NCBI GenBank assembly: GCA_017452265.1
Contig: JAFTMS010000001.1
Span: 1 to 33,275, forward strand
Source: Bacteroidales bacterium
Lineage (GTDB): Bacteria; Bacteroidota; Bacteroidia; Bacteroidales; UBA932
Direction of reading: 5' to 3'
Length of the DNA: 33,275 bases
Position 1 is the first letter of the stretch; the number at the start of each line of letters is the position of its first letter. The notes beneath the pieces are model-generated. The model ran no database searches and was not told where the DNA came from. It saw nothing but the letters and a program-made list of their open reading frames with translations. Positions 12,312 through 26,943 of the stretch are shown piece after piece. Both the position numbers and the translations under genes were made by a program.

Positions 12312-13088
12312 TTAAAACAGACTGTTCAGGACTGCGGCAAGGCGGTAGCCGGCGTATAGGATCTGAGTCTCTATCAGCGGCATGGCGGCATTGAGGAAGT
12401 CCTGGTCGAGCTTCTGGTCCGGCTTGGCGAGGTCGAACTGCACCTCACAGCGTACGGCGCTGTCGTGCATCCAATCTCTCGGAGAACCGGCGACAATGGC
12501 TTTGGCAGCCTTTCTGTCGATATTGTCCAGTTCTTCGGCCCACTCCGTCGACGAGCAGATGCGGCACATCTGTATGATCGCATAATCCCATGCGGAATGG
12601 ACGTAGAGCGGTGTCTTCGACTTAGGCATATACACATCGTACTTCATGTTGTGCGTCGTGTACTTGACGTGCGCCGGACAATGCATGTCACCGACAAGGT
12701 GCACGATGTACTTGATGTTCACAGCCACAGCCGAATCCGACAGTTCCTTATAATTCTCCAGAGCATCGATGGCCTGCTCAAGTCCATAAACCGCATTTCC
12801 CTTCTTCGGGTTGAGCAGACTGTCCTGATACTCAAGGGCCTCGTTCACCGGAGCGGTATGCCAGTTCGTCGTGAACTTATACTCCGGAGTATGGCGGTAG
12901 TCATCCATCCACTTCGCCACATAGACGATCGAATGACCGCCGAGATACTTCTCTATTTTCTTTTTTACAGAAGGCTTAAGATGGTTTTCCGCAATCTTAG
13001 CCACAGTCTCGTGTCCCTCACGTCCCCATCCGAAGGCAGGGCCGCACATAAAGAGGGACACAAGAATACTTATGATTATCTTCTTCAT
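12312..13088 (-). CDS. Secreted S1/P1-type zinc nuclease
   Basis: A 258-residue protein of the S1/P1 nuclease family, zinc enzymes of the phospholipase C/P1 fold that cleave single-stranded nucleic acids and 3'-phosphates. The ATG at 13088 is preferred over the in-frame ATG at 13118 because it gives a clean signal peptide, MKKIIISILVSLFMCGPAFG, cut just before W21. In this family that tryptophan must be the mature N-terminus because it binds zinc. Other ligands are visible: H26 in WGREGH, the Asp of AKWMDD, His of NWHT, HLVGDMH, and HSAWD. It follows the GlpT-like gene by 35 bases and ends with a strong terminator. The likely role is periplasmic nucleic-acid or phosphodiester breakdown next to a phosphate-ester uptake locus. 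Mapping to that locus is positional inference. Confidence 0.88.
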   Translation of the reverse strand: MKKIIISILVSLFMCGPAFGWGREGHETVAKIAENHLKPSVKKKIEKYLGGHSIVYVAKWMDDYRHTPEYKFTTNWHTAPVNEALEYQDSLLNPKKGNAVYGLEQAIDALENYKELSDSAVAVNIKYIVHLVGDMHCPAHVKYTTHNMKYDVYMPKSKTPLYVHSAWDYAIIQMCRICSSTEWAEELDNIDRKAAKAIVAGSPRDWMHDSAVRCEVQFDLAKPDQKLDQDFLNAAMPLIETQILYAGYRLAAVLNSLF

Positions 13089-13099
13089 AATGATACGAT

Positions 13100-13122
13100 T
13101 TAATAAAAAACCGACCATCGGT
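13100..13122 (-). terminator. Possible weak terminator after the GlpT-like gene
   Basis: Just after the stop at 13124 the minus strand has ACCGA, a TGG loop and TCGGT, followed by TTTTTATTA. A 5-bp G/C-rich stem with a T-run is a minimal intrinsic terminator. It may let some transcription through into the nuclease gene, whose own promoter I cannot identify. Confidence 0.5.
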
Positions 13123-13123
13123 A

Positions 13124-14548
13124 TCAGATGTCCGCCTGCTTTCTGTTCCAGTTCAGGACAGGGAGGAGGAACGAAATTACAGCAGCGCCAATCCAGAATA
13201 TCGAAACATACGAGAAGTCATACTGCACGATTTCTCCAGAGGCATCTCTGACAGCCTGTCCGTCAATGAGCCAGCCGCTGATTATATTCATGATACCGGC
13301 CGCAACATAGGAAGCAAGCCCAACGATTCCGAGCGCCGCTCCCGTAGCCTTGCGAGGCACAAGATCTACCGCCATAAGTCCGCCGATGAAGCAGATCAGC
13401 ACACCGATTGCTATTCCGAAAAGCGCCATTGCGGCAATATTGACCAGCCAGCCGTCACCTCCGTAAAGGAAGAGGGCAAGAGCTACGGATTCCATAATTC
13501 CGGCAACCAATGCCGGCCATTTTCTATCCCCCTTGAAAAGGGTATCCGAAATCCATCCTGCGCAGACCGTTCCGATGATTCCGGCAATGGTATTCACGGC
13601 TATGATTATAGAAGCCTCCATCAGTTCGAATCCCTTGTTTTTCTGAAGGAAGAACATGCCCCACTCGTTGATTGCATATCGGCTCATATACATGAATGCA
13701 CTTGAAAGGGCCAGAATCCATACTCCCGGGTTTTTGAGCACCGCTTTCTGGATGCGCTGGGTTTCTGCAGCATTGCTTGCCGCCTGAGCCGCTTTCTCAG
13801 CAGCCTCTGCGTCAAGCTGCTCCTGAGTCTTCTCGCCTGCAAGCACCTCCACAGGAGAAAGCCCCTTGCTTTCAGGAGTATCATGAAGCCATAAAGCTAT
13901 GAGTGTCACGCCCAGCATTCCGGCAACAGCCGCACCGAAGAAGCCCCACTGCCATCCCGCAACAGACACAAGCTCAGCCACAAATACAAAGGAAAGACCT
14001 TCTCCGAAATTATGTGATGCACTGAAAAAACCGTAGAACGTACCGCGGATTCTCAAAGGATACCAGCGTGACAGTGAAATGATTGCAGGCGGAGAACCCA
14101 TAGACTGGCTCCAGCCGTTGATTATCCACATAGCGGAAAACATCACGAACATCATGGCACTTGAAATGCCCGCCAGGCCATGCCATACTCCGAGAAGTCC
14201 CATTATGCAGTTAGCGACAGCTGACAATGCAAGACCCGTAGCCATGAACTTCTTTATGTTGCAGTAGTCAGCAAGGAAGCCGTTCACGAACTTACCCACA
14301 GCATACGTCCAATAGAGACATGCTCCGACTACACCGAGCTGTTTCGCGTCAAGGATTCCTGCGTCGATTATCGGCTGCTTCATCACATTGAGCGATGTAC
14401 GGCACACATAGTAAAGACTGTAGCCGAGAGTTGCCGCGATAAACGCCTGAAGCCTTAATTTCTTGTATTTTTCATCTGCCTGATGAGCCGGCACCTTGTC
14501 CGCAGACGGTGCGCTGATGGAATAGAAACTTTTAATCTTGTCAAACAT
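13124..14548 (-). CDS. glpT: GlpT-like organophosphate:phosphate antiporter (MFS, OPA family)
   Basis: A 474-residue inner-membrane carrier with 12 expected membrane segments. It fits the OPA family (GlpT, UhpT, UhpC, PgtP), which exchanges glycerol-3-phosphate or sugar phosphates for inorganic phosphate. Key features are R50 in LYYVCRTSLN, corresponding to GlpT R45, and an arginine in MSRYAINEWG at the start of the second half, corresponding to GlpT R269; the pair binds the phosphate. INGWSQSMGSPP is also typical. The central loop (about residues 225-265) is long and Ala/Gln/Glu rich. It lies 27 bases after a glycerophosphodiesterase gene, which argues for glycerol-3-phosphate as substrate. 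Hexose phosphate uptake or a UhpC-like sensor remains possible. Confidence 0.85.
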   Translation of the reverse strand: MFDKIKSFYSISAPSADKVPAHQADEKYKKLRLQAFIAATLGYSLYYVCRTSLNVMKQPIIDAGILDAKQLGVVGACLYWTYAVGKFVNGFLADYCNIKKFMATGLALSAVANCIMGLLGVWHGLAGISSAMMFVMFSAMWIINGWSQSMGSPPAIISLSRWYPLRIRGTFYGFFSASHNFGEGLSFVFVAELVSVAGWQWGFFGAAVAGMLGVTLIALWLHDTPESKGLSPVEVLAGEKTQEQLDAEAAEKAAQAASNAAETQRIQKAVLKNPGVWILALSSAFMYMSRYAINEWGMFFLQKNKGFELMEASIIIAVNTIAGIIGTVCAGWISDTLFKGDRKWPALVAGIMESVALALFLYGGDGWLVNIAAMALFGIAIGVLICFIGGLMAVDLVPRKATGAALGIVGLASYVAAGIMNIISGWLIDGQAVRDASGEIVQYDFSYVSIFWIGAAVISFLLPVLNWNRKQADI

Positions 14549-14575: not shown

Positions 14576-15511
14576 TTAGTCATGACGCCCCACAGAGCGT
14601 AGGTAGTTGATGAGGAACTCAGGACGGTCGGTCTGTATCATGGATACGCCCCAGTCGAGGTATTTTCCATATACGGACGCAGGATCTCCGCTTGCATATG
14701 CGGCATCGTCATCATTGCCGAAGCCTCCGCAGAGAGAAGGCCAGAGGGTGTTCACCCACACTTTCGAGCCGGTTTCCTGTATTCTTTTCATGCAGTCCAT
14801 TGTCCCATCGTCGAGCTTCTGCCAGCACACCTCGTATGCAAGAGGCACCTCGCCCGTCTCCATGTATTCTGCGAAAAGAGCCTTTCCCTGAGGCTTGTTG
14901 ATGTCGATGATAGGCATATACAGGAGGTTGTGCTCATGTCTGGCCATATCCTCGGCCACCTTCGCGACACTGCTCTTGCCCTTCATGAGCACCTGGCCTG
15001 TCACTCCGAGTTCCTCGGTGAGTCTCACGATTTCATCATAATAGTCATACGCATGGTCCACATTCACGAGGATTCTGTCCTTGCAGCAGAGAAGCGCCTC
15101 TCGCAGTGTCGTGATGCGGAGTGTGTCCACAGCCACATTGTGCGCCCTCTTCATCTTGAATGTCCTGAGGGAGTCATACGTGAAGTCGCTCACCTTGCCT
15201 TTGCCGTTGAACATACGGTCGATGGTCTTGTCGTGGCTGAGGACGAGGACGCTGTCCTTTGTCATCTTCACGTCGAGCTCCATCATGTCCACACCCATCT
15301 TTATTATCGACTCGATTGCCGGAATGGAGTTCTCCGGCCAGTTGCGCCAGTCGCCGCGGTGGGAGATCACCATCACATAGTCCGAATTCGGATTGTTGAG
15401 TTCCGCAAGAAGCTTTTCAGCCCTTGTGGCATACTGAGATTCCTGCTGCGCGCATGATGCCGCCATAAGGACGGCTGCAGCAGCGATAAAGATTCTGGTT
15501 AATCTGTTCAT
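14576..15511 (-). CDS. Glycerophosphodiester phosphodiesterase, lipoprotein
   Basis: About 311 residues. This family hydrolyses glycerophosphodiesters (deacylated phospholipids, glycerophosphate-linked groups) to glycerol-3-phosphate and an alcohol. The active-site motifs are complete: H51-R52-G53 followed by PENS, E78 and D80 in MMELDV, and H93-D94 in VLSHD. The N-terminus MNRLTRIFIAAAAVLMAASC is a lipoprotein signal with C20, placing the enzyme outside the cytoplasm. ATG 15511 is chosen because the signal starts there; ATG 15520, three codons upstream, is also possible. Immediately downstream is the GlpT-like carrier, so product release and uptake are coupled genetically. Upstream is a 97-base gap containing an 11-bp hairpin, so this pair may be a separate transcript from the SusCD genes. 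Confidence 0.92.
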   Translation of the reverse strand: MNRLTRIFIAAAAVLMAASCAQQESQYATRAEKLLAELNNPNSDYVMVISHRGDWRNWPENSIPAIESIIKMGVDMMELDVKMTKDSVLVLSHDKTIDRMFNGKGKVSDFTYDSLRTFKMKRAHNVAVDTLRITTLREALLCCKDRILVNVDHAYDYYDEIVRLTEELGVTGQVLMKGKSSVAKVAEDMARHEHNLLYMPIIDINKPQGKALFAEYMETGEVPLAYEVCWQKLDDGTMDCMKRIQETGSKVWVNTLWPSLCGGFGNDDDAAYASGDPASVYGKYLDWGVSMIQTDRPEFLINYLRSVGRHD

Positions 15512-15533
15512 GATTGTCATCAGTCAGCTTAAT

Positions 15534-15562
15534 TAGTGGCCTATCATATATATAGACCACTA
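15534..15562. promoter_or_regulatory. 11-bp hairpin/palindrome upstream of the glycerophosphodiesterase gene
   Basis: The arms 15534-15544 and 15552-15562 pair over 11 positions (one G-T mismatch/wobble) around a 7-base A/T loop. No T-tract follows on either strand, so it is not a standard terminator. On the minus strand the loop region contains TATATATG, one base from a -7 element, with TTTG 16 bases further upstream. An operator or an RNA processing/attenuation structure is possible. Confidence 0.55.
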
Positions 15563-15608: not shown

Positions 15609-17192
15609 TTAATTTGCAGGGGTAACCCACGTGAGTCCTGTGACGTTTGCAAGGTTTGCAGCGCTGCATGTTCCGATGTATTCCATGAAGTTTCCTTCAT
15701 TGATTGCCGCTGCGGCACCGCTGATCTCGATGCCTCCGCTCACGACTACATTGGACACGGTCGCGAACTTGCTGAAGTTGGCCACGAGAAGGCCTACATA
15801 TTTGCCGTCAGCTCTGTCTGTCCTGATCACGCCGTAGTTTCCGCCGCCGTCAACCGACACTGTCGCATGGTTGAGAAGGGCCACAAGGCCTGCACAGGTG
15901 CCGTTTCCGCCGCTGTTCATTGCCTCAAGGTCTCCGTTGTTGACGCAGTTCACGAGCTTTCCGTCCTGACCGATTACACAGCAGATGTTGGCAAGACGTC
16001 CGTTTGAAATGGCGTTCACCTGGTTTCCGTTGTTGGTACATCCGTCGAGCACGGTTCCGCCGTTAGGGGTCGCAACGATACCCGAGCAGCGTCCGAGGGT
16101 GACGGTCATGTCTCCGTTGTTCACGCAGTTTTTGATCGTAGAGCGTCCTTCTCCCTTGTTGTAGGTCGAGAAGCCTGCGATACCGCCGTACATCGCGCAT
16201 GTACCGCCGTTGGCAGTGTTTGCTCCACCGACTGCCTCAACCGCGACATTCGAAGTACAGTTCTCGATGAGGTTGTTCAGCGAGCCTGTCGCACAAGCGA
16301 AGCCGACGATGCCTCCGAGGGCGAATCGTGCGCTGGCCTCTGTTCCCGTAGAATAGAGCGTACCGTTCACGGTGACATTCTGAATCGTAGAGTTGAGCGA
16401 TGTACCCACGAGAAGGCCTGCATCGGACTGGCCTGTTGCAGAGATTGTCATGCTGCCTTCCAGAACGACATTCTTTATGACAGCCTCATTGACTGCCGGG
16501 AAGAGTCCGAACGTCTGGTTTGCAGCGAGTTCCACTGTCGGTTTGAATCCTGTAATCCTGTAGCCGTTTCCGTTGAATGTTCCCGAGAATGCATTGCTCT
16601 CGATCGTACAATCGTTGTTCGCATTGATTACGGAAGCGACATACTGCTGATATTCAGTCACTTCAGAAAGATCTACATTATCAAGGAGCACTACTTCTCC
16701 TGACTCGTCCTCCCATCTTGACGTGCCTGTGCCTCCGGCGACAGCCTTGAGGAAGTCCACGAAATGGTCAGGCGTAGCGATACCGCCGACAGGAGCTGCA
16801 GGATCGATATACGTGAAGCCTGACTGCTTTACAGGAATGGTCACGGTCACGCCGTCGCCGTTCATTGCACCGCCGCCGGAAATCTTTATCTCACCCGAAC
16901 GAGGCTGCACCGTCGTGGTCTCGTTCACATAGTTCTCGCCCACCTTGAAGGTGACGATTGCATTGCCGCTGCCGTAAGTGGCAGAAGGCGTGATCCATGA
17001 AGGAGTCTGGACTATCCAGTTGACATTGGAAGTCACCGACACCGCGAGGTCTGCAGGATTGCTGGCAGCCACTTCATTGAACGCCGTGACATCGACAGTG
17101 ATCACGCTCTTTGCAGACTCGTCCTTTGTGCATGACGCAAGGATTGCAGCGCCGCACAGAAGGCTCAGAATGGTCTTTATTGTATTTTTCAT
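15609..17192 (-). CDS. BACON/beta-helix surface lipoprotein, no enzyme domain recognised
   Basis: A 527-residue lipoprotein with C21 at the end of its signal and KDE right after it, close to the K-(D/E)-(D/E) surface-export signal described for Bacteroidetes lipoproteins. Residues about 32-130 form a BACON-type all-beta domain (VITVDVTAFNEV... VNWIVQTPSWITPS). A short helical link (GIATPDHFVDFLKAVAGG) leads to about 300 residues of GLUG-like parallel beta-helix repeats, with recurring N-C-x-N-N-G and G-G-I-x-G patterns. I see no catalytic motif. The build matches the N-terminal half of the neighbouring phosphodiester glycosidase, 8 bases upstream. By position behind SusD it may be a surface glycan-binding protein, but that is inference. 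Confidence 0.8.
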   Translation of the reverse strand: MKNTIKTILSLLCGAAILASCTKDESAKSVITVDVTAFNEVAASNPADLAVSVTSNVNWIVQTPSWITPSATYGSGNAIVTFKVGENYVNETTTVQPRSGEIKISGGGAMNGDGVTVTIPVKQSGFTYIDPAAPVGGIATPDHFVDFLKAVAGGTGTSRWEDESGEVVLLDNVDLSEVTEYQQYVASVINANNDCTIESNAFSGTFNGNGYRITGFKPTVELAANQTFGLFPAVNEAVIKNVVLEGSMTISATGQSDAGLLVGTSLNSTIQNVTVNGTLYSTGTEASARFALGGIVGFACATGSLNNLIENCTSNVAVEAVGGANTANGGTCAMYGGIAGFSTYNKGEGRSTIKNCVNNGDMTVTLGRCSGIVATPNGGTVLDGCTNNGNQVNAISNGRLANICCVIGQDGKLVNCVNNGDLEAMNSGGNGTCAGLVALLNHATVSVDGGGNYGVIRTDRADGKYVGLLVANFSKFATVSNVVVSGGIEISGAAAAINEGNFMEYIGTCSAANLANVTGLTWVTPAN

Positions 17193-17200
17193 GATTGTGT

Positions 17201-19633
17201 TTATTTCGTTCTTATAAGGATATAGTTCATACAGCTTCTTTCGCCCTTGGAATCGGACACGGAATTGACAAGGCCTCCCTTTCCGGCAGCGGAGTCATAT
17301 ATCCACATCGCTGAAGAGCCGCCTCCGTCGAAGCGTGTCACATTGTATCCTCCGAGCTTCTCCGCTATACGGTAAAGCTCATAGGCTGTGATTCCGATGG
17401 AGTACCAGTCCTGACGTCCGTCCACCTCGACGAGCCATATCTTCGATGCGTCCTTGCTGACGACAGGGAAGGTGAGCGGGTCACGCTGGATGTAGAATGT
17501 ATTGCTGGAGCTGATGCTGGATGTGTTGTCCTTTCCGTCCTGCATCACCCTGTACATCGTCGAGTTCTGGGTATATATAGGCCTTGTGGTCTCTCCTTCC
17601 ACCTCGATGTCGCAGCGCAGCTGGAGCGTTGTGCCGACGGAAACGAGTTCCGCGAACGAAGCGGCCGTGCTGCCGGAAAGGGCTATGCCGATCTGCCTGT
17701 CGGACGTGATGTACGGGCCTTCAGCCAGAGCGGTGCTCCTGCCGTCATGGATGGCCGTGACCTTCGCCGAAGCATATCCGGTGTTCACGGTCATCGGGCT
17801 GTCCTCATATTCAGCTATCACATACAGGGCATCAGTCGCCAGACTGTTCACAAGATCCGTATGATTCTTGTGCGGATGCTTCTTGTAGCGGCTGTTGTAG
17901 AGATTCACCTGATATTCCGCCGAGACATGCCTCATGATGGTATCGTTGAGCGAGCTGTATTCAAACTCCTTGTCAGCGACCTTGATGTTTCCCGAAAAGC
18001 TCTTCTTTCCGCATGAAGCGGTGCCGTCGGTGAAGACGGTGAACGCCCATGCGTGGTTGGCGAGCCTGTTCACCACATCAGGATTGTTGATGTACACCGG
18101 CTGGCCTTCCTCCACATGGAATCCACGAGATATTCCGTCGTTCGAATCGAAGAATCCCGTATTGATGCCCGCCACGATGTTCTGGCCCTCCGCACGCTTG
18201 CGCTCGCAGAGCTGCGACAAGGTCTCGCGTATCTTGAAGCCGTTGTTCTTGTTGGAATTGCCGTTCGGATTCGGAATGCAGTCGTCCGCATATGCGGTCG
18301 TGAGGTCGAGCGAAGCATTCTGCAGGTCGATTTCGAGGACATGGATATGACGGGGCACATTGAGGCAGTTGTAGTGGGCATATGAACATCCCGGGCTCAC
18401 TTCATATGTGCTGACCGTCTCCCAGTCGTAGAAGGATTCCGCCTTTTCGCTTATGGTCACGGCCTCGAGGTCGTAGGCTTCGGTTGCAGGGGAAGCTACG
18501 GCATTCCTGTAGGCATCTGATGGAGCGGATTCGGGATTGTCCCTGTATGCCGGGTATTCCCCGACATGGCCCTTGCCTGTATTGCCGGTGAACGAGGCGT
18601 AGTCCCTGCTGTATGAACAGCCCCATGCCGGGCCTATCTCTCCGGAACGGTCCGCAAGGATGCATCCTGCATTCGTGCAGGCGGTCACTTCCGCTTCGCT
18701 GTACGCAACAAAGCCTGCAGCACGTGCCACGCCGGCACATATCACATCACCGTTGTTCGTACAGTTCGCCACCTTCGCACCCGAACCTGCCATGAAGCGT
18801 CCGCATATTCCTGCGACGCACACATCCGCACCAGAAGCCGAGCCGCTGTACACCACATCGGCATTGTTGATGCAGTACGTGATTTCTCCGCCTTCGGCAT
18901 ATCCGGCCACGGCACCGGCGTTCACCTGTGCGGCATCGCCCGAAACCGTAATCCTGTCACCTTCTGCTCCGACAGTCAGGTTCTTCACCGTGGCATCCTT
19001 CGCATATCCGATGATTCCGGCATTTCCTGCATCAGAAACCGTCCAGTTGATGTTCCTGATGGCAAAATCACGTCCGTTGAACACTCCCGTGAAAGGATTT
19101 TCAGCGGTTCCTGCCGGAGTCCAGTCCTTTATGGAGGAAGCATCGATGTCGTTGAGAAGCACCACCACTCCGTTTTCCATGAAGCGTGTGAGAGAGGCCG
19201 ATTCATTCACGGCCTTTGCAAACGCCACAAGGTCGTCCGCCGTGGATATTCCCCTTGCCGTAACATTCTCACCGACAGGCTCCTGAGCTATATTTATCTC
19301 AGCCGTCGTACCGGAAAGCGTCTTCACCGTCACCACAGCCGTACGGGCAGCACCTTCAAGATTCATCTCGAAAGTCAGTCCGACATTCACAGCCGCAGAA
19401 GATCCTTTGCCGGACGATACGGAAGGCTTCACCCAGTTCTTGTCGGAACGGATGAGCCAGTCCTCGCCTGAAAGCACGGACACATATTCCTGACCGCCCT
19501 GGGGATCTGCCTCTATGGACAGCGGTGTCACCTCCAGAGCCTGGACAGGTTCGTCCACAGATCCGCCGCAGGACTGGACTGACAGTCCTGCGAGAATCAG
19601 CGAAGCTAAAATGCTGTTGAATCTTATCTTCAT
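17201..19633 (-). CDS. BACON plus phosphodiester-glycosidase (NAGPA-like) surface lipoprotein
   Basis: An 810-residue lipoprotein (C22, then GGSVDEP). Order of parts: BACON-type beta domain at about 35-120; helical link GISTADDLVAFAKAVN; GLUG-like beta-helix at about 150-345; and, from about 470 to the end, a domain of the NAGPA/phosphodiester glycosidase family (PF09992). The last is shown by AGINTGFFDSNDGISRGFH, WLVEVDGRQDWYSIGITAYEL, the glycine-rich FDGGGSSAMWI and the closing GERSCMNYILIR. The family is named after the human uncovering enzyme, which removes N-acetylglucosamine from a GlcNAc-1-phosphodiester; bacterial members attack related sugar-phosphate diesters. It follows susD by 14 bases, so it is probably the surface enzyme of this locus. 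The exact sugar and aglycone are unknown. Confidence 0.87.
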   Translation of the reverse strand: MKIRFNSILASLILAGLSVQSCGGSVDEPVQALEVTPLSIEADPQGGQEYVSVLSGEDWLIRSDKNWVKPSVSSGKGSSAAVNVGLTFEMNLEGAARTAVVTVKTLSGTTAEINIAQEPVGENVTARGISTADDLVAFAKAVNESASLTRFMENGVVVLLNDIDASSIKDWTPAGTAENPFTGVFNGRDFAIRNINWTVSDAGNAGIIGYAKDATVKNLTVGAEGDRITVSGDAAQVNAGAVAGYAEGGEITYCINNADVVYSGSASGADVCVAGICGRFMAGSGAKVANCTNNGDVICAGVARAAGFVAYSEAEVTACTNAGCILADRSGEIGPAWGCSYSRDYASFTGNTGKGHVGEYPAYRDNPESAPSDAYRNAVASPATEAYDLEAVTISEKAESFYDWETVSTYEVSPGCSYAHYNCLNVPRHIHVLEIDLQNASLDLTTAYADDCIPNPNGNSNKNNGFKIRETLSQLCERKRAEGQNIVAGINTGFFDSNDGISRGFHVEEGQPVYINNPDVVNRLANHAWAFTVFTDGTASCGKKSFSGNIKVADKEFEYSSLNDTIMRHVSAEYQVNLYNSRYKKHPHKNHTDLVNSLATDALYVIAEYEDSPMTVNTGYASAKVTAIHDGRSTALAEGPYITSDRQIGIALSGSTAASFAELVSVGTTLQLRCDIEVEGETTRPIYTQNSTMYRVMQDGKDNTSSISSSNTFYIQRDPLTFPVVSKDASKIWLVEVDGRQDWYSIGITAYELYRIAEKLGGYNVTRFDGGGSSAMWIYDSAAGKGGLVNSVSDSKGERSCMNYILIRTK

Positions 19634-19647
19634 CTTTTCCGTTTAGA

Positions 19648-21507
19648 TTAAAGGCCTACACCGTCTTCCCAGCCCGGGTTCTGCGAAAGCGCACCGCCGG
19701 TGATCTGACGCTGGTCTGCTGGAATCGGCCACAGATAATCCCTGTCCTCGTTCCACTCGTAAGCCTCTGCGGCATAATATGTAAGATGGCCGGAAGCAGA
19801 GAGCGACCAGTTGCCTGCAAGCTCCATAGTGTTGCTTGAAGGTGCTGTTGTGGAAGGAGCAGTGCCGTTGTATAGACAGAGGTCTGCCCTGCCGTCCTTG
19901 TCGAGGTCGTATTCTCCGGCAGAAGCCACATATATGCCCTGGAAACCGTCAGTAGAGGCTGGCACAAGCCATTTTCCTTCCTTCCAGCGGAGAAGGTCCC
20001 ACTGGCGGAAGCCCTCGAAGCAGAGCTCCACGGTACGCTCACGACGCACCTCAAGGATGGCTGCAAGCTGTGTTCCCTTTGCATTAGGGTAGTACTCCTT
20101 CATGAGAGGATCCTCAACAGTAGGGACGGTGCCCATCTTCGGCATACCCACACGTCCACGGATGACGTCGATAGTCTTGGCCACATCGGCATCCGTCAGC
20201 GTTCCGAGCTCGGCCTTTGCCTCCGCATAGTTGAGAAGCACCTCCGCATAACGGAAGAGAGGATAATCCGAAGTGGATGTGGTCGCGTTCTCATGGTCGG
20301 CATTCGAGATGAACTTGATGATGCGGTAGCCGCTGATCATGCGCTCCCATGAAAGGTCCTCATGTGCGCTTCCGTCAATGGCCACGTATGAAGGGCCGTG
20401 GAGGGTCTGGGCCATACGAGGGTCACGTGCCTGGAACTGGTCGTAATATCCCATGGTCTCCCAGCCGTCCTTGTTCTGAACAGGCTGTCCGTTCGACTGG
20501 AGATAGTGGTTCACGAAACGCTGGGTCGCGCTGAACTTCTTGTTCTTCATGGTGAACTGGAGTCCGTGACGCACGAGCAGATCGGTGTTGTAGCCCCTTG
20601 AGAGGATGGTTTCATTGGTTTCCGCGTTCTCAAGAACGAAATACTCACGATATGAGGCATTCGTTGCCTTTGAAGCGATTCCCATGGTGTTGTCCGTATA
20701 GAGGCTTCTCTTGCCGATGACGGTCTCCGCCGCCTTTGCAGCCTGCTCGAGGAACCATGTAGAAGATACGGTCACGCCGTCGTATGTCTCCTCGTCCGTC
20801 GGAACATAGGCGCTGCCGGCATGGTACTTTCTGAAGGTTCCCTCAAAAAGGGCCGCACGTGCCTTGAGAGCCATCGCAGCATCCTTTGAGACATGATATA
20901 CGGCACCGCTTCCCCATGCCTCAGGAAGACGCTCGTAGGCCTTGTCGCAGTCCTCGAGCACCTTCATCATCACGTATCCGCGAGGGTCGCGAGGCTTGTT
21001 GAGGGACTCTGTATCGCCTGAGCCGATCACATAGTCGTACCACGGCATGTCACCGTACTTGAGCACCATCTCGAAGTAGAAATATGCCCTGAAGAAATAC
21101 GCCACGCCGTTGTACTGCTCGCGCACGGCTGCATCGGAGCACTTCGATGAATTTGCGAGGAAATAGTTTATGTTCATCAGCGGAGTGAATGTACCGTTGG
21201 TCTCGATGTATCCGCTTGAATTCACCTTCGCCTCGGACCATGACTTTGAGGATGCCGTGCGGGTGCCCTTCTGGAGCGTGTTCAGCTCGGATGCCATAAG
21301 GTCATCGGCGTATGTACCCACGAGGCTCTCGGGAGTCGGAAGGATGTCGCTGTAGAACTTGTTCGTCCACATCTCAAGATCGGCCTCCGTCCGGAAGAAT
21401 GAGGATGTAGACAGGTTTGTCTCCGGAGTCTTCGTGAGGAAGTCCTCGCAGGAGGTAAGTGCAATGGCTGCAAGAGCCGCTGTCAGTATATATTTTGTCT
21501 TTTTCAT
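19648..21507 (-). CDS. SusD/RagB-family surface nutrient-binding lipoprotein
   Basis: A 619-residue protein that forms the lid over a SusC-type outer-membrane transporter and captures the substrate. The start at 21507 is chosen because MKKTKYILTAALAAIALTSC gives a lipoprotein signal with C20; the longer reading frame upstream would overlap susC. The residues EDF after C20 are acidic, as in exported surface lipoproteins. SusD features are the early FLTKTPETNLS, TPR-like helices (YNGVAYFFRAYFYFEMVLKYGDMPW, YAEVLLNYAEAKAEL), RRERTVELCFEGFRQWDLLRW and the C-terminal LSQNPGWEDG. It starts 14 bases after the susC stop, the usual arrangement. Ligand is unknown. Confidence 0.95.
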   Translation of the reverse strand: MKKTKYILTAALAAIALTSCEDFLTKTPETNLSTSSFFRTEADLEMWTNKFYSDILPTPESLVGTYADDLMASELNTLQKGTRTASSKSWSEAKVNSSGYIETNGTFTPLMNINYFLANSSKCSDAAVREQYNGVAYFFRAYFYFEMVLKYGDMPWYDYVIGSGDTESLNKPRDPRGYVMMKVLEDCDKAYERLPEAWGSGAVYHVSKDAAMALKARAALFEGTFRKYHAGSAYVPTDEETYDGVTVSSTWFLEQAAKAAETVIGKRSLYTDNTMGIASKATNASYREYFVLENAETNETILSRGYNTDLLVRHGLQFTMKNKKFSATQRFVNHYLQSNGQPVQNKDGWETMGYYDQFQARDPRMAQTLHGPSYVAIDGSAHEDLSWERMISGYRIIKFISNADHENATTSTSDYPLFRYAEVLLNYAEAKAELGTLTDADVAKTIDVIRGRVGMPKMGTVPTVEDPLMKEYYPNAKGTQLAAILEVRRERTVELCFEGFRQWDLLRWKEGKWLVPASTDGFQGIYVASAGEYDLDKDGRADLCLYNGTAPSTTAPSSNTMELAGNWSLSASGHLTYYAAEAYEWNEDRDYLWPIPADQRQITGGALSQNPGWEDGVGL

Positions 21508-21521
21508 GATTCCCTGGAGTT

Positions 21522-24500
21522 TTAGAATGTGATGTCGACACCGAATGAGAATGTCCTTGAATATGGATACATACATCCGTCCTTTGCGCTTGTGGTCGCG
21601 ATTTCAGGATCGATTGCAGTACACCATTTCTTCATCGGAGACCAGTACCAGAGGTTCTCTCCCGAGAAGTAGAACCTTACCTTCTCGACAGCCTTGCTCT
21701 TGAGCGGCAGGGTGTATCCGAGGGTGATGTTCTTCAGACGGATGTAAGATGCATCCTGAAGCCAGTAGTCGCTGGTCACGAGATATGAAGAATTCGAGAT
21801 ACGGCCACGGCGGCGCGGGAAGAGGGCCTTGCTGTTGTCGGCGCCTTCCTCGGAAGACCAGCACTTGCCGATAAAGTCGGAAGCGATGAACGAAGGCCTC
21901 TGGTATGAGTAGTTGTTCCAGAAGTAGATGCTGTTTGCAGCTGGCATCCAGTCACACTTGCCCACACCCTGGAAGAAGATGTTGAAGTCGAATCCGTACC
22001 ACTGGAAATCTCCCTTGAACGAATAGTTGTAGCGAGGGATGGAGTTACCTATCACCTTGCGGTCGCCCGGGTCGTCCACCGTATTCGAGCCGGTATCTAT
22101 CTTCTTGGAGCCGTCGACGTCCACATACTTTATGTCACCTGCCATAAGGTGGTTGTAAGGAGCCACACCTGCGTACACGCCTTTGTTTGCATTCGAATCG
22201 TCAACGACAGCGGCATATGCGGCTGCTTCTTCATCCGTAGCGAAAAGGCCGTCAGTGGTGTATCCCCAGATTTCTCCAAGCACCTTGCCCACATAATGGT
22301 CGGAAAGGAGCTTCTCCGAGTTCTCGTACTTCGTGATTACGGTCCTGTTGTCTCCGAGTGATGCACTCACACCATAGCTGAAGGGCTTTCCTGCAAGGTT
22401 GAACATATCCCTCCATGAGACAGAAAGCTCATAACCTGAAGTCCTGAGGTCGGCGGCATTCGTCTTAGGAGCGGATGAACCGTAAACAGAAGGAAGCGTC
22501 ATCGACTCCGTAAGCATGTTCTTCGTGTCGCGGATGAAGAAGTCCGCGGTCACATTGAGGCGGTCGCTGAAGAAGCCGAGGTCGATTCCGACGTTCTGCG
22601 TGATGACCGTCTCCCATGTCAGGTCTGAGGACACGGGAACCGTCGCAGCGGCATAGCTTGCCTTCGACGAGCCGTTGAGGATATAGCCGATCTGGCCTGT
22701 CTTGATGGTATCCCAGTAGTAATAGTTGCTGACCTGCTGGTTTCCGAGCGAACCGTATGAGACGCGTAGCTTGGCCTTGTTCCACCAGTTCTCCATCGGC
22801 TCCCAGAATGGTTCCTCTGAGATGCGCCAGCCTGCTGAAGCCGACGGGAAGAAGCCCCAGCGCGAATCCTTAGGGAAGCGTGAAGAACCGTCGTAACGGC
22901 CTGAAAGCTCGAGAAGGTATCTGTCATCATAGTTGTAGTTCACACGGGCGAAGAATCCGAGCGTACGGTATGCGGACACCGACTCGCCTGCCGAATAGAT
23001 GTTGTTGCTTCCGTCCTCGTTGTTGATGAGGGAGATGTATGAAAGGGCATCGCTCAGAGAGCCTTTCTGATGGATCGAGAGGGTCGAGCCCCTGTAGTCG
23101 TCGAAGTTGCCTCCGACTGTGGCCGAAATGCTGTTCTTTCCGAATGTGCCTGCATACTGGAAGTAGCCGTTGATGATGTGACCGTCCTGATAGTAGCGTG
23201 ATTCCTTGTAGAAATCGTATACGGAACCATTTGTGAATATACCTCCTTCAAGACCGTTTCCTGCGTACATGCGCTTGTTGGCGTTATCGTAGCAGTTGAG
23301 GGTCGGCAGACAGCGGTAAGATTCCACCTTGTCACGACGACGGTAGGTGTAGTCGGCGATGAACTTGAGGCCCTTCACTATGTCGAATGTGAAGCGGTTG
23401 GTCATCGTGATGTAGTTGTTCGTCCTCTTGTTCTCGTTGCGTCCGTCCATGAACACACCGCCTCGTCCGCTGAAGAGCGGAGATGTGGCATCCGCCATGT
23501 ATCCGGGCTGGATGTTGATGGTTCCGTCAGGGTTGTATGGGGTATACATAGGGCCGACGTTCTGGGTAAGGTTGAACATGATACCCTGGGATACGTTGCC
23601 CGTCGAGCCGTCCTGCTCCCAGAATCCGCCATAGTCATACAGCATGCGCTCGAAACTGAGGGAGCTGGAGTATGTAAGCCAGTCTGCGATTTTTGCATCC
23701 ACCTTGCTGCGGAGGGAGAAGCTGTTGTAGATGTCCTCTGCGGCATTGTTGAAGATACCCTCCTTGTAGAGGTAGCGGCCGCTGACGTAATACTTCACCT
23801 TGTCTGTGCCTCCACGAACGGTGATGTTGTGTTCGGTTTCCGGACGATTCTTCTTGAAGATGAAGTCGTACCAGTCGAAGTTGCCGAGGTAGGTGTATGT
23901 ATATGTGCCTGTCTCGTCCGGAATCACCCACGGACGCTCAGGGTTCTCGGTCACGTCGTTGCGACGGTCGTACATCATCTGGATCTGCTCGTCGCTGTAG
24001 GTGTATGCCCCATAGCCCTTGAGATAGTTGTAGAACTCGTTGCAGATGTTGATGTAGTCATACGACGAGGTGATGAAGTCTGTGCTCGTAGTGTTCTGCG
24101 ATATGCTCACGCGGCCGGAGTAGTTGATCTGGGCCTGGCCTTCGCTTCCGTTCTTCGTGTTCACGAGGACGACGCCGGCAGATGCCTTTGCACCGTAGAT
24201 GGCGCAGGCAGAAGCATCCTTGAGGACTGAAATGGACTCGATGTCGTTGGGGTTCACCTGCGAGAGCGAGCCTTCGATTCCGTCGATGAGGATGAGCGGA
24301 TCGCCCGAGTTGAGCGAAACGGAACCACGGATGGATACCGAATACTGGTTACCCTCGACCGAACCGTTTCCTGTCGTGAGAAGAAGAGACGGATCAGCAC
24401 CCTGGAGAGCCATTGCGGCATTGGTCACAGGCCTCTGCTGGAGGTCCTTTCCGTCGATCACGCTGACTGCACCTGTGAGGTTCACCCTCTTCTGAGTACC

Positions 24501-25124
24501 GTAGCCGACTACGACGACTTCGTCCAGATAGTTCTGGTCTGTCGAGAGAATCACCGTACAAGGGCTGTCTGCAGCGCTCGAAAGGGTGAATTCCTTGTCC
24601 GAAAGGCCGATGAACGAAGCGACGAGAGTCACAGGATATGTCACTCCCGGGAGTTCGAAATCACCGTCCAGATTCGTGATGCAGCCCTGCGTGGTGCCCT
24701 TCACAACGATTCCGGCGCCCATGAGCGGTTCACCGTTCTCGTCTGTCACGACACCCTTCACCGTGCCTTTGGTCTGAGCCGAAACCGGCTTGGCTGCCTG
24801 TTTTCTGGTGACGGAGATTCTGCGTCCTTCAATCACATACGAGACATCCTGTCCTGCGAAGACCTGGTCGAGGACTTCGCCGATCGATGCGTCCTTGGCA
24901 GACACGCTGATGCGCCTGCCGAGATCCACCTCGTCTGCGTTGAGAATGATGGAGTAGTTCTCGGACTGGTTCAGGGCCGTTATGGCTTCCTGCACAGTCA
25001 CGTTCTTCATTGAGAGGTCAATCTTCTGCGCATATGACGACAGCGGGGCCATCAGAGCGAAGAAGAGAGCCATGGACAGAAAGCGTCTGAAGGCGCCTGC
25101 TGTCTTTCTTGAATCATTTCTCAT
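21522..25124 (-). CDS. SusC/RagA TonB-dependent transporter with STN signalling domain
   Basis: A 1200-residue outer-membrane transporter. Residues 1-33 are a signal peptide (SSYAQ). An STN (secretin/TonB N-terminal) domain spans about 38-105 and marks transducers that talk to a FecR anti-sigma factor. A carboxypeptidase-regulatory-like beta sandwich covers about 120-195 (GVVTDENGEPLMGAGIVVKG). A TonB-box-like DEVVVVGYGTQKR is at about 201-213. The plug lies at about 215-325 (PLILIDGIEGSLSQVNPNDIESISVLKD), followed by the 22-strand barrel ending in FSFGVDITF. The gene lies 53 bases after fecR and 14 before susD. This is the transport pore of the locus, energised by TonB. Its regulation by the adjacent sigma/FecR pair is strongly suggested by the STN domain. 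Confidence 0.96.
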   Translation of the reverse strand: MRNDSRKTAGAFRRFLSMALFFALMAPLSSYAQKIDLSMKNVTVQEAITALNQSENYSIILNADEVDLGRRISVSAKDASIGEVLDQVFAGQDVSYVIEGRRISVTRKQAAKPVSAQTKGTVKGVVTDENGEPLMGAGIVVKGTTQGCITNLDGDFELPGVTYPVTLVASFIGLSDKEFTLSSAADSPCTVILSTDQNYLDEVVVVGYGTQKRVNLTGAVSVIDGKDLQQRPVTNAAMALQGADPSLLLTTGNGSVEGNQYSVSIRGSVSLNSGDPLILIDGIEGSLSQVNPNDIESISVLKDASACAIYGAKASAGVVLVNTKNGSEGQAQINYSGRVSISQNTTSTDFITSSYDYINICNEFYNYLKGYGAYTYSDEQIQMMYDRRNDVTENPERPWVIPDETGTYTYTYLGNFDWYDFIFKKNRPETEHNITVRGGTDKVKYYVSGRYLYKEGIFNNAAEDIYNSFSLRSKVDAKIADWLTYSSSLSFERMLYDYGGFWEQDGSTGNVSQGIMFNLTQNVGPMYTPYNPDGTINIQPGYMADATSPLFSGRGGVFMDGRNENKRTNNYITMTNRFTFDIVKGLKFIADYTYRRRDKVESYRCLPTLNCYDNANKRMYAGNGLEGGIFTNGSVYDFYKESRYYQDGHIINGYFQYAGTFGKNSISATVGGNFDDYRGSTLSIHQKGSLSDALSYISLINNEDGSNNIYSAGESVSAYRTLGFFARVNYNYDDRYLLELSGRYDGSSRFPKDSRWGFFPSASAGWRISEEPFWEPMENWWNKAKLRVSYGSLGNQQVSNYYYWDTIKTGQIGYILNGSSKASYAAATVPVSSDLTWETVITQNVGIDLGFFSDRLNVTADFFIRDTKNMLTESMTLPSVYGSSAPKTNAADLRTSGYELSVSWRDMFNLAGKPFSYGVSASLGDNRTVITKYENSEKLLSDHYVGKVLGEIWGYTTDGLFATDEEAAAYAAVVDDSNANKGVYAGVAPYNHLMAGDIKYVDVDGSKKIDTGSNTVDDPGDRKVIGNSIPRYNYSFKGDFQWYGFDFNIFFQGVGKCDWMPAANSIYFWNNYSYQRPSFIASDFIGKCWSSEEGADNSKALFPRRRGRISNSSYLVTSDYWLQDASYIRLKNITLGYTLPLKSKAVEKVRFYFSGENLWYWSPMKKWCTAIDPEIATTSAKDGCMYPYSRTFSFGVDITF

Positions 25125-25157
25125 AAGATCGGGTTATTATTTAATTGTTGGTTGTGT

Positions 25158-25192
25158 GTCATTTCCGGGATATCACGTCATTTCCGGGATAT
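25158..25192 (-). repeat. 16-base direct repeat at the fecR stop codon
   Basis: The same 16 bases (GTCATTTCCGGGATAT on the plus strand) occur at 25158-25173 and 25177-25192, a 19-base period. The right copy encodes the last codons and stop of fecR (ISRK-stop). The left copy lies in the gap before susC. It reads as a short tandem duplication or a paired binding site. Confidence 0.8.
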
Positions 25193-26158
25193 GTAGATGA
25201 CGCCGTCCCTTTTCCGGAAGCGCATCTTTCCGTCCACGTTGATGCCCTTGAGGATCTGGTCGAGGGTCTCGCTGTTGGTGAACCATGCGAAATAGCGTGT
25301 TTCAGCGAGGGATTCGTCCAGAAGGATTATCTTGGTTCCGAAGAGTCTTTCGAGATCCGAGGCTATGTCGCTCAGCCGCAGATTGAAGAAATGCATCGAG
25401 CCGTTTTCATGGAACCCTTTGAAGCTGAACGGATTGAACTCCTTCAGATCTATTTCGCCGCTCTTGCGGTCGTACTGCAGCATCTCGCCGGGATGAAGGA
25501 CAAGCTGCTGTGTCCTGTCCTTTGTATCTATGTCCATGCGTACGGCTCCGTCCAGCAGAAGAAGCTCCACGCATTCCGTGTTGTCATATGCCTTGAGGTT
25601 GAATGTCGTGCCGAGGACGTTCACATCTATATCCCCGGAATTGATGATGAACGGTCTTTCCGGATCCTTTGCGACGTCGGCAAAGACTTCTCCCTCCACG
25701 AATATCCTGCGTTCCGCACCGGTGAATTCCTCCGGATAGGTGATGCGGCTTCCAGCGTTCAGATGCAGGTGCGTGCCGTCTGAAAGGGTAAGTTCATCGG
25801 TCTGGCCGTAAGGCACCTTTATCTCATGCCATTCGGTCTGCTGCGGCGGCACGAGCATGCTGTAGGCCAAGGCTCCGGAAAGCGGCAGCATAATGAATAC
25901 GGCCACACGTGTCATCCAGCCGGCTGCCTTGCGGATCATCTTCCGTGTGCTCTTCCTGCGCTCGATACCGAGCTTGGCACTCACGGAAGCGAAGGCCTCC
26001 GCCGAAATCTCCGGCTCTTCCTTTTCCAGTTCCGACATCATGGCGTCGAGGGCACGGACCACCTGCGGATCGTCGGCGTGCTCAGCCAGCCAATCCTGCA
26101 CCTGAACCTCTTCCTGCGGCTCCAGACGGCCATAAAAATAATTCTTCAGAATATCCAT
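25178..26158 (-). CDS. FecR-family anti-sigma factor
   Basis: A 326-residue inner-membrane protein. Residues 1-80 form a cytoplasmic sigma-binding region, about 83-103 a single membrane segment (VAVFIMLPLSGALAYSML), about 113-208 the periplasmic FecR domain (GQTDELTLSDGTHLHLNAGS, GEVFADVAKDPERPF, VLGTTFNLKAY), and about 256-324 a C-terminal secretin-like domain (DUF4974 type; FFNLRLSDIASDLERLFG). It keeps the sigma factor inactive until the STN domain of the loaded SusC signals to it. The gene starts 20 bases after the sigma stop. Its last codons are duplicated just downstream. Position and domains make the assignment secure; the inducing ligand is unknown. Confidence 0.95.
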   Translation of the reverse strand: MDILKNYFYGRLEPQEEVQVQDWLAEHADDPQVVRALDAMMSELEKEEPEISAEAFASVSAKLGIERRKSTRKMIRKAAGWMTRVAVFIMLPLSGALAYSMLVPPQQTEWHEIKVPYGQTDELTLSDGTHLHLNAGSRITYPEEFTGAERRIFVEGEVFADVAKDPERPFIINSGDIDVNVLGTTFNLKAYDNTECVELLLLDGAVRMDIDTKDRTQQLVLHPGEMLQYDRKSGEIDLKEFNPFSFKGFHENGSMHFFNLRLSDIASDLERLFGTKIILLDESLAETRYFAWFTNSETLDQILKGINVDGKMRFRKRDGVIYISRK

Positions 26159-26178
26159 TTCTTTGGGGATTAGTTTTA

Positions 26179-26730
26179 TTAGGACATGGATTTCCTCAAG
26201 TCCTTCAACGCCAGCTCTATATGCTTTTCGACCGTCCTGACCGAGAGATTCAGCCTTATGGCTATCTCCATGTTGGAAAGATGCTCGTAACGGCTCATCT
26301 TGAAGACGGTACGGCGCTGCGGCGGCATAGCCTCTATGTCGCTCTGAAGAAGCGCGTTCGTCTCCATGTAGCTGTACCAGTCCTCCACCGTCCGTTCAGA
26401 TGTCTGCGGTTCGGGCACCTGCGAGCGCAGGGTGACGGTCTTGTTGCGTTTCGACTTGAGTATGTTTATCACCTCATTGCGCGCCATCACGCAGAGGTAG
26501 TTCTTGAGCGACTGCTCCTTGTTGAGACTGAAGCGGTGGATCCACAGCTTCATGAATATGTTCTGGGCCACATCCTCCGCCATGACATCGTCCTTCAGCA
26601 TGCCTTTGACGAAATGCAGCACCATAGGATAGTACCTGTGGAATATGCGTTCGTAAGCCTCTATGTCTGCCCCCCCCTGGAGAAGGTCAGCCAAAAGCTT
26701 CTCATCAGAATATTTGCCGTCCTGGCTCAT
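26179..26730 (-). CDS. ECF RNA polymerase sigma-70 factor
   Basis: A 183-residue extracytoplasmic-function sigma factor of the Bacteroidetes type. Region 2 is at about 25-90 (YERIFHRYYPMVLHFVKG, DDVMAEDVAQNIFMKLW) and region 4 helix-turn-helix at about 130-180 (MPPQRRTVFKMSRYEHLSNMEIAIRLNLSVRTVEKHI). The start MSQDGKYSDEKLL at 26730 is preferred; a longer frame exists upstream but adds 31 residues with no family match. The gene heads the fecR-susC-susD locus and presumably activates it. A TATTTTTG element at 26757-26750 fits a Bacteroidetes -7 box. A run of eight G lies in codons 18-21. Confidence 0.94.
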   Translation of the reverse strand: MSQDGKYSDEKLLADLLQGGADIEAYERIFHRYYPMVLHFVKGMLKDDVMAEDVAQNIFMKLWIHRFSLNKEQSLKNYLCVMARNEVINILKSKRNKTVTLRSQVPEPQTSERTVEDWYSYMETNALLQSDIEAMPPQRRTVFKMSRYEHLSNMEIAIRLNLSVRTVEKHIELALKDLRKSMS

Positions 26731-26749
26731 TATGTCCGTTTTAGTGCTG

Positions 26750-26757
26750 CAAAAATA
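26750..26757 (-). promoter_or_regulatory. Candidate -7 element of the ECF sigma gene
   Basis: TATTTTTG on the minus strand fits TAnnTTTG and is 19 bases from the ATG at 26730. No clear TTTG is found 19-21 bases upstream, so the promoter is weak or needs an activator. Confidence 0.4.
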
Positions 26758-26897
26758 GTGGTTCCTTCCGCCCGTTGTCCCGTCTTGACCGAAACATAAC
26801 GGACTTTTAACATTTAAGAACAACCGAGCAGCTCCGACTACGTAAGCGGACAGGCAAAACTTTTTGCGTTTTCAGCAACCACCTGCCTTTCAACCAG

Positions 26898-26943
26898 TTA
26901 CAGAAAGTGCGTGCTCCCCCGCGGCGGCACGCACTTTCTGTAA
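26898..26943. terminator. 17-bp perfect hairpin after nuoN
   Basis: Arms 26898-26914 and 26927-26943 are perfectly complementary over 17 bp, with a 12-base G/C loop. The hairpin begins about 40 bases after the nuoN stop, the natural place for a terminator. However, neither strand has a real T-run after the stem (the arms end TTTCTGTAA), so it is not a textbook intrinsic terminator. Confidence 0.6.

Follow-up and report, generated by a model that had tools for sequence, protein, structure and literature searches.

Nine genes on the minus strand make up the locus described here, within a window of 33,275 nucleotides (the whole stretch of DNA that was analysed) from an uncultured Bacteroidales genome. 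They run, in order, from an ECF sigma factor and FecR through a SusC with an STN domain, SusD, a PF09992 lipoprotein and a companion lipoprotein to a GDPD, an OPA-family carrier and an S1/P1 nuclease-family protein. This gene set and order had been proposed in an earlier sequence-only reading, and profile matches confirm both. The features are as follows.

26179..26730, minus strand: ECF sigma factor (Sig70_bacteroi1); TIGR02985 at 148.8 bits (cut-off 126.4)
25178..26158, minus strand: FecR-type anti-sigma factor; PF04773 and PF16344
21522..25124, minus strand: SusC/RagA TonB-dependent transporter with an N-terminal STN signalling domain; TIGR04056, PF07660 and PF07715
19648..21576, minus strand: SusD-like surface lipoprotein; PF07980 and PF14322
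17201..19633, minus strand: NAGPA-domain glycosidase lipoprotein; PF09992, 61.8 bits against 25
15609..17192, minus strand: companion lipoprotein; homologous to the N-terminal region of the glycosidase
15535..15561, minus strand: hairpin between the companion and GDPD genes; AGTGGTCT..AGRCCACT
14576..15520, minus strand: GDPD lipoprotein; PF03009 (89.5 bits) and DUF4996
13124..14548, minus strand: OPA-family (GlpT-like) organophosphate carrier, MFS; match to 1pw4
12312..13118, minus strand: S1/P1 nuclease-family protein with a signal peptide; PF02265, 139.9 bits

The TIGR02985 score was taken on the open reading frame 26179-26823, of which codon scoring prefers the ATG start at 26730; the same scoring prefers starts at 25073 for SusC, 21507 for SusD and 13088 for S1/P1. 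With codon-scored starts, the gaps from the sigma factor to S1/P1 are 20, 104, 14, 14, 8, 88, 27 and 35 bp, and IMPDH (ORF start 12142) comes 169 bp after S1/P1. The susC and susD genes are adjacent. SusC scores 862.5 bits against TIGR04056, its STN domain spans residues 57-108, and the ECF sigma factor, FecR and STN-bearing TonB receptor are all present by profile match. No glycoside hydrolase or polysaccharide lyase was matched among the nine proteins in Pfam (E up to 0.001), and the Pfam search of the locus likewise found no EEP phosphoesterase, MINPP-type phosphatase or DUF4886 protein. A search of a plasmid collection returned a single weak match, to an actinobacterial record.

Protein features

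The glycosidase lipoprotein carries a BACON domain (residues 59-118), a repeat region that resembles the companion protein and that we infer to be beta-helix/GLUG-like, and a C-terminal NAGPA domain (residues 691-807) whose PF09992 match spans only profile positions 67-168 of 169. In profile comparisons, this C-terminal domain matches 3ohg at E 9.5e-12 and 6pki, the uncovering enzyme, at E 0.002, and its N..FFD, DG and DGGGS motifs align with both structures. The companion had been described as a BACON lipoprotein. It is homologous to residues 1-323 of the glycosidase (26%, E 3.6e-14), but its BACON match, at 15.7 bits, falls under the Pfam cut-off of 25, and no catalytic domain was found in it in Pfam up to E 1.

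The GDPD active-site motif (His/Glu-Asp/His), present in 35/35 copies, is intact in the window copy, whose nearest solved structure is 3i10 (E 7.2e-57). The carrier matches 1pw4 (E 1.4e-43) and keeps the equivalents of R45, H165 and R269; in E. coli numbering, we take R45, R269 and H165 to be the two arginines and the histidine of the OPA substrate site. Across a 40-row carrier alignment that includes the window, the R45 equivalent is kept in 40 rows and those of H165 and R269 in 27 each. The earlier description of this protein as a GlpT-like antiporter holds as far as likeness to GlpT goes, but its score against the GlpT equivalog TIGR00712 (209.4 versus a cut-off of 632.55) is far short of GlpT proper, and its substrate could be an organophosphate other than glycerol-3-phosphate. 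In the S1/P1 protein, Trp31 of the open reading frame aligns with residue 1 of 8qjl; this tryptophan is the predicted mature N terminus, with signal-peptide cleavage placed from the alignment only.

Conservation of the gene set among related loci

Same-strand runs at 63 related glycosidase loci contain SusD in 58 cases and SusC in 53, both upstream of the glycosidase, together with an EEP phosphoesterase in 28, a DUF4886 protein (presumably SGNH-like) in 27, GDPD in 19, the carrier in 12 and S1/P1 in six. These are counts of codon-scored gene calls, a few distant loci (L112, L113) being described from their longest open reading frames. GDPD was counted only above 120 bits, with weak copies such as that on the other strand of L151 omitted, and the S1/P1 genes in divergent units of L176 and L179 lie outside the count. 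At 37 of the 63 loci the run extends to the end of the fetched stretch; where it ends more than 400 bp inside (26 loci), GDPD or the carrier is present in 17. Five of the 63, each with more than 10 kb downstream (L131, L134, L160, L163 and L180), have zero partner enzymes in the run, and in L160 a MINPP-type gene lies on the opposite strand. A sample of 56 proteins from the loci and flanks of relatives matched 53 Pfam families; of the 25 listed, two are of glycoside hydrolases (GH43 and melibiase, one member each). One distant locus, in G054, has the order SusCD-EEP-GH3-GDSL-GDPD-GlpT, without NAGPA and with GH3.

The association extends to whole genomes. In 200 congeners, which are related and not independent, GDPD occurs in 29/30 genomes with the glycosidase versus 56/170 without it, EEP in 28/30 versus 52/170, and the window-type carrier in 20/30 versus 37/170 (rows with E up to 1e-175; G186, matching at 65% over a partial stretch with E 8.7e-161, was dropped). 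For S1/P1, co-occurrence gives p = 0.02 in the same related, non-independent genomes. A same-strand GDPD no more than 25 kb away accompanies 11 of 35 glycosidase loci against 0.42 expected, or 10 excluding the window. GDPD is missing within that distance and strand on the other 24 of the 35 contigs, so conservation is partial; in G106, for example, it lies about 210 kb from the glycosidase on the other strand. The association with the glycosidase is real for GDPD, EEP and the carrier and weak for the nuclease.

In trees built without identical rows and without copies under 75% coverage (for example, the GDPD of L122 and L142), the window GDPD falls in a set of eight (support 99) and the window carrier in a set of four (support 98), with all rows in both sets from glycosidase loci. 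The locus label shows no significant clustering on the GDPD tree (nine changes; 59/500 shuffles as low), on which three rows of unknown linkage were unscored. A single gain of GDPD is unsupported; the GDPD tree shows repeated recruitment.

These data bear on whether GDPD, GlpT and S1/P1 belong to the locus or form a separate glycerol-phosphate unit that lies downstream of a SusCD-NAGPA locus by chance. The 88-bp gap before GDPD contains a hairpin common to the window and two relatives (L123 and L171), in which a T-run follows it in a terminator-like arrangement. The window hairpin itself is absent from the terminator-like sites listed for the window, which total 10 versus 12.1 in shuffles, no excess over chance, and include one at 13122-13110, before S1/P1. 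The conserved hairpin speaks against a simple operon, and because of it GDPD and GlpT may still be bystanders as far as transcription in the window is concerned. A chance neighborhood would also fit the GDPD-GlpT pairs that stand apart from the glycosidase in G009 and G023, those on a separate contig from it in G071, G072, G086 and G129, and the GDPD that lies near PPI2-SurA, without the locus, in G022. Against it stand the co-occurrence and proximity statistics and the tight packing among relatives, where GDPD, GlpT or S1/P1 overlaps the preceding gene or follows within 25 bp at 13 of the 63 loci. In G034, GDPD overlaps the sigma factor start by 4 bp. GDPD moreover occurs on either side of the glycosidase, upstream in some loci and downstream in others, and GDPD, the carrier and EEP recur with it in varying orders and at different chromosomal locations (nuo/IMPDH in the window, next to rpoA in L123). 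After these tests of co-occurrence, proximity and packing, we do not favor the chance arrangement and consider it quite improbable.

Proposed function

That related genomes keep versions of this gene set points to a feeding system. We think it probable that the locus belongs to a general class of SusCD loci for phosphodiester-linked glycoconjugates. The fuller statement, that its substrate induces it and that it serves to acquire such glycoconjugates through SusCD, most likely teichoic-type glycopolymers of Gram-positive cell walls, seems to us evenly balanced between right and wrong; the identification of teichoic-type polymers as the substrate is, taken singly, a guess that is somewhat more apt to fail than to hold. 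The sequence-only reading had likewise proposed use of a phosphodiester-linked glycoconjugate, and had named as evidence against itself a lack of conservation of the GDPD, GlpT and nuclease genes beside SusCD. The recurrence of GDPD, the carrier and EEP with the glycosidase partly supports the proposal and leaves it unrefuted, but the conservation is partial and the nuclease, at 6/63, contributes little to it.

By analogy with known ECF/FecR/STN systems, we infer that ligand binding at SusD/SusC would be relayed through the STN domain to FecR, freeing the ECF sigma factor to switch the locus on. At the surface, the NAGPA lipoprotein with its binding domains would cut the sugar C1-O-P bond, and the freed chain would be bound by the companion lipoprotein and SusD and imported by SusC. 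GDPD would convert glycerophosphodiesters to glycerol-3-phosphate outside the cytoplasm, the OPA carrier would bring glycerol-3-phosphate in and phosphate out, and S1/P1 may serve as an accessory phosphoesterase. Wall teichoic acid, as described in PMC7831098, has an alpha-GlcNAc-1-P murein linkage unit, a Gro-P backbone and D-alanine substituents. There, the NAGPA target would be the alpha-GlcNAc-1-P bond through which the polymer is attached to MurNAc. A bolder and more tentative idea is that the NAGPA lipoprotein acts as a surface 'reverse LCP', cutting the GlcNAc-1-phosphodiester through which teichoic acids or other cell-wall glycopolymers are held on peptidoglycan. Gut Bacteroidales might in this way strip and eat the walls of Gram-positive neighbors through a dedicated substrate-sensing locus.

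The partner enzymes at related loci invite other substrates. MINPP-type phosphatases, found at seven of the 63 loci, suit inositol phosphates better than teichoic acid, and together with DUF4886 (27/63) and EEP (28/63) they could serve the use of inositol phosphates, glycerophosphoinositol or glycosylated inositol-phospholipids: EEP and MINPP would strip phosphates, DUF4886 would deacylate, GDPD would split glycerophosphoinositol and the carrier would take up glycerol-3-phosphate. The window locus, however, has none of MINPP, DUF4886 and EEP. Such a diet would also leave NAGPA without a clear task because, to our knowledge, the sugar in GPI-like lipids is not linked via its C1 phosphate. We regard inositol compounds as an improbable substrate.

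Nucleic acids are a still poorer candidate, and we hold their use to be very unlikely. S1/P1 and EEP would here act as nucleases, with SusCD importing nucleotides or oligonucleotides. The best solved-structure profile match of EEP is 2v0s (named LR1; E 1.5e-4), which we take to be a retrotransposon endonuclease, but the EEP matches are weak and include mannosyl-6-phosphatase 4c1r (E 0.041). S1/P1, moreover, is in the same-strand run at few loci, and we know of no part for GDPD or NAGPA in DNA or RNA breakdown. Nucleic acids have been proposed for SusCD loci with phosphodiesterases (PMC6499787).

Bacteria commonly carry phosphodiester-linked glycans, teichoic acids and phosphoglycan capsules among them. 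As a concrete, testable candidate for their use, the analysis offers a conserved, ECF-controlled set that combines a putative sugar-phosphodiester glycosidase with GDPD and an organophosphate carrier. If the proposal is true, it would provide a role for the PF09992 proteins of bacteria, found in 137 of 200 genomes of the genus.

Comparison with known systems

The window locus shares with SusCD polysaccharide utilisation loci its adjacent susC and susD genes, its surface lipoproteins and its sigma/FecR/STN-SusC regulators. It differs from them in that its enzymes are directed at phosphodiesters and phosphoesters; neither glycoside hydrolases nor polysaccharide lyases were matched. An ECF sigma/FecR pair with an STN-SusC is the usual mark of substrate induction.

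SusCD loci built on phosphoesterases are already described in PMC8115612 and PMC6499787. In the former, the Flavobacterium PUS (PusCD) has, in place of CAZymes, phosphodiesterases and organophosphate transporters of the inner membrane alongside SusCD-like complexes, as in the window, which likewise combines SusCD with a phosphodiesterase or phosphomonoesterase. The window locus might accordingly scavenge organic phosphorus, for phosphate instead of carbon, from phospholipid head groups or other phosphodiesters; GDPD, the OPA carrier, EEP and MINPP-type phosphatases are compatible with this. PUS is induced by low phosphate, however, whereas the window regulators are ECF sigma/FecR with STN-SusC and the glycosidase is of the predicted sugar-phosphodiester type, and we judge phosphorus scavenging unlikely. 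The term 'GDPD' is absent from the main text of PMC8115612. The CAZyme-free SusCD loci of PMC6499787 show the same combination with phosphodiesterases but were counted by PF00149 and PF01663, neither of which was matched in the window locus. Among the papers listed by our literature search there was no report of a SusCD locus that uses teichoic acids, phosphoglycan capsules or other phosphodiester-linked glycans, and no teichoic-acid or NAGPA SusCD locus; the earlier statement that no described locus has exactly this gene set is uncontradicted by it.

With the uncovering enzyme and the DUF2233 structure 3ohg, the putative glycosidase has in common the PF09992 domain and its motifs. It differs from these proteins in being a lipoprotein of a SusCD locus in which this domain is joined to BACON and a repeat region. 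GlpQ and GlpT form a glycerophosphodiester pathway, and the window likewise contains a GDPD and an OPA carrier, encoded by adjacent genes. Unlike that pathway, the window has a GDPD that is a lipoprotein with DUF4996 and a carrier far under the curated GlpT cut-off.

Gene order and surroundings of the locus

The locus is real, conserved and coherent. As the sequence-only reading had described, its minus-strand genes run in the order ECF sigma factor, FecR, SusC with an STN domain, SusD, BACON-NAGPA lipoprotein (the glycosidase), companion lipoprotein, GDPD, OPA-type carrier and S1/P1 nuclease, separated by gaps of 20, 104, 14, 14, 8, 88, 27 and 35 bp, with a further 169 bp between the S1/P1 gene and the IMPDH ORF. 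The companion had been called a BACON lipoprotein; its BACON match falls below the Pfam cut-off, but it is homologous to residues 1-323 of the glycosidase. Upstream lie nuo-like genes of the Proton_antipo_M family, followed, before the sigma gene, by a hairpin at 26901-26940 with a perfect 14-bp stem (judged by eye) that is probably their terminator. Downstream are the IMPDH, PPIase and OstA-like genes. The window is the entire 33275-base contig, C16 of its genome, and opens within a minus-strand 23S rRNA gene, of which the contig end has left the 5' portion (1-901). The same genome (G000) holds a second S1/P1 gene at C7:67978-68751, 69% identical to that of the window.

Gene content of related glycosidase loci

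Scanning genome contigs with an alignment of five glycosidases yielded 63 loci (L numbers), which overlap in part with the genomes (G numbers) of our other comparisons (e.g. G005, G011 and G034). They come from uncultured Bacteroidales or Bacteroidia MAGs, many with ruminant gut labels; two are named Rikenellaceae or Alistipes. Upstream of the glycosidase, the same-strand run includes SusD in 58 of the 63 loci, SusC in 53, FecR in 35 and sigma in 23. The runs also contain EEP (28), DUF4886 (27; an SGNH-like, esterase-like family), GDPD (19), GlpT (12), S1/P1 (6) and a MINPP-type phosphatase (6, or 7 by profile). In 37 of the 63 loci no more than 400 bp separate the end of the run from that of the fetched sequence. 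The other 26 loci have GDPD in 13 runs, EEP in 10, GlpT in eight and S1/P1 in two, with GDPD or GlpT in 17.

At least one of these six partners is present in 49 of the 63 loci. Among the 14 with none, nine stop within 5 kb 3' of the glycosidase (L125, L126, L127, L133, L144, L156, L165, L169 and L182), and five extend more than 10 kb downstream (L131, L134, L160, L163 and L180). GDPD and GlpT occur together in seven (L122, L123, L149, L161, L170, L173 and L179). The exact window order of glycosidase, companion, GDPD and carrier recurs in L123, which adjoins rpoA rather than nuo, and one contig of G192 carries a companion-like protein, GDPD, S1/P1 and GlpT in series. In L176 and L179, SusCD, sigma, FecR and S1/P1 lie on the opposite strand, pointing away from the glycosidase run.

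With some starts moved to the furthest ATG, GDPD, GlpT or S1/P1 overlaps the preceding gene or follows it within 25 bp in 13 of the 63 loci (L121, L128, L130, L132, L135, L136, L148, L149, L152, L157, L159, L161 and L175). In G034 the overlap between GDPD and the start of sigma measures 4 bp, and in G004 GDPD shares 4 bp with a different NAGPA gene.

Co-occurrence and ancestry of the partners

The glycosidase is found at E up to 1e-50 in 30 of 200 genomes of the genus. These genomes are enriched, by statistics that ignore relatedness and contig ends, in GDPD (29/30 versus 56/170 others, p 1.3e-11), EEP (28/30 versus 52/170, p 5e-11), the window-type carrier at E up to 1e-175 (20/30 versus 37/170, p 2e-6) and S1/P1 (13/30 versus 39/170, p 0.02). 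By manual count, 11 of the 35 contigs with the glycosidase (G000, G005, G034, G062, G065, G095, G156, G162, G183, G186 and G209) have GDPD within 25 kb on the same strand, where random placement, with the same disregard for relatedness and contig ends, expects 0.42. It is absent from that range at the other 24, whose contigs are often short. GDPD is about 210 kb from the glycosidase on the same contig in G106, and a GDPD-carrier pair sits on a different contig in G071, G072, G086 and G129.

Among 198 genomes spanning the order, the window's own is the only one with a match to the domain (E up to 1e-40). Taken with the 200-genome scan, this makes the system appear restricted for the most part to this genus; most of the 63 named loci carry no genus label. 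PF09992 proteins as such are abundant in the genus (137 of 200 genomes, with a maximum of 13 matches per genome).

In quick trees with SH-aLRT support only and long branches flagged, the window GDPD belongs to a group of eight (support 99) and the carrier to one of four (support 98), every member of both coming from such glycosidase loci. Locus labels cluster on the carrier tree, where none of 500 shuffles needs as few as the six changes observed. On the GDPD tree their clustering is not significant (nine changes; 59 of 500 shuffles do as well), and GDPD therefore probably joined such loci repeatedly.

Transcription of the two halves

An 88-bp gap parts the sigma-to-companion half from the GDPD, carrier and S1/P1 half. 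Among 203 fetched loci, the hairpin pattern found there recurs only in L123, L171 and two copies of the window (L021 and L051).

Window 15535-15561, minus strand: hairpin AGTGGTCT..AGRCCACT, in the 88-bp gap before GDPD
L123 12946-12969: hairpin between the preceding lipoprotein and GDPD
L171 21990-22014: hairpin likewise after the preceding lipoprotein and before GDPD

In L123 and L171 a T-run 3' of the hairpin gives it the look of an intrinsic terminator; the window hairpin has no T-run behind it and is not listed by the scan for terminator-like sites. That scan places sites at 13122-13110 (carrier-S1/P1 gap) and 12295-12266 (after S1/P1), and the number in the region is not above chance (10 versus 12.1 in shuffles). 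Transcription of the two halves may therefore be separate or unequal.

Enzymes and carrier

In the 810-residue glycosidase, the PF09992 match spans residues 691-807 (profile positions 67-168). The C-terminal domain profile built from 25 relatives matches the solved structures 3ohg (E 9.5e-12) and 6ozd (E 1.4e-9). It also has a weak match to the uncovering enzyme (6pki, E 0.002), and the N..FFD, DG and DGGGS motifs align. The solved structure nearest to the window GDPD is 3i10 (E 7.2e-57), and all 35 copies compared carry the GDPD motif.

The carrier resembles GlpT (1pw4, E 1.4e-43) and retains the equivalents of R45, H165 and R269; it fails NCBI's curated GlpT cut-off, and we therefore assign it no substrate. 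In a 40-row carrier alignment, 13 rows have Pro at the H165 position and 13 have Gln or Lys at the R269 position. A second carrier copy in the same genome (L114, on C26) belongs to a 13-row clade of the carrier tree; these are presumably the same rows, and the clade thus appears to have lost the histidine and the second arginine of the organophosphate site. Proteins closely related to the window carrier (76-78%) occur in L184 (G159 C83), L185 (G159 C74) and L092 (G032 C8); two NAGPA genes adjoin the carrier at one of these places and two EEP genes at the other two.

Candidate substrates and known systems

No classical glycoside-hydrolase family was matched among the window proteins or recurrent partners; among the 25 of 53 families listed for the relatives' locus and flank proteins, two are glycoside-hydrolase families with one member each. 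According to PMC7831098, wall teichoic acid conventionally has beta-ManNAc-(1-4)-alpha-GlcNAc-(1-P as its murein linkage unit, together with glycerol-phosphate backbones and D-alanine substituents. This structure matches the NAGPA name reaction and the GDPD substrate class, and DUF4886 could be suited to the D-alanine esters. The MINPP-type and EEP partners widen the candidate substrates to other organophosphates.

Two genomes of other families carry SusC, SusD, GDPD and GlpT in one string without this glycosidase, ordered SusC-SusD-EEP-DUF5689-GH3-GDSL-GDPD-GlpT in G054 and SusC-SusD-fn3/PQQ-unknown-GDPD-GlpT in G060. The sequence-only reading knew of no described locus with exactly this set, and the literature searched likewise yielded no locus that joins NAGPA, GDPD and an OPA carrier under ECF control. 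The principle has precedents: the PUS loci (PMC8115612) and the SusCD loci without CAZymes and with phosphodiesterases, 576 of 14,713 (PMC6499787).
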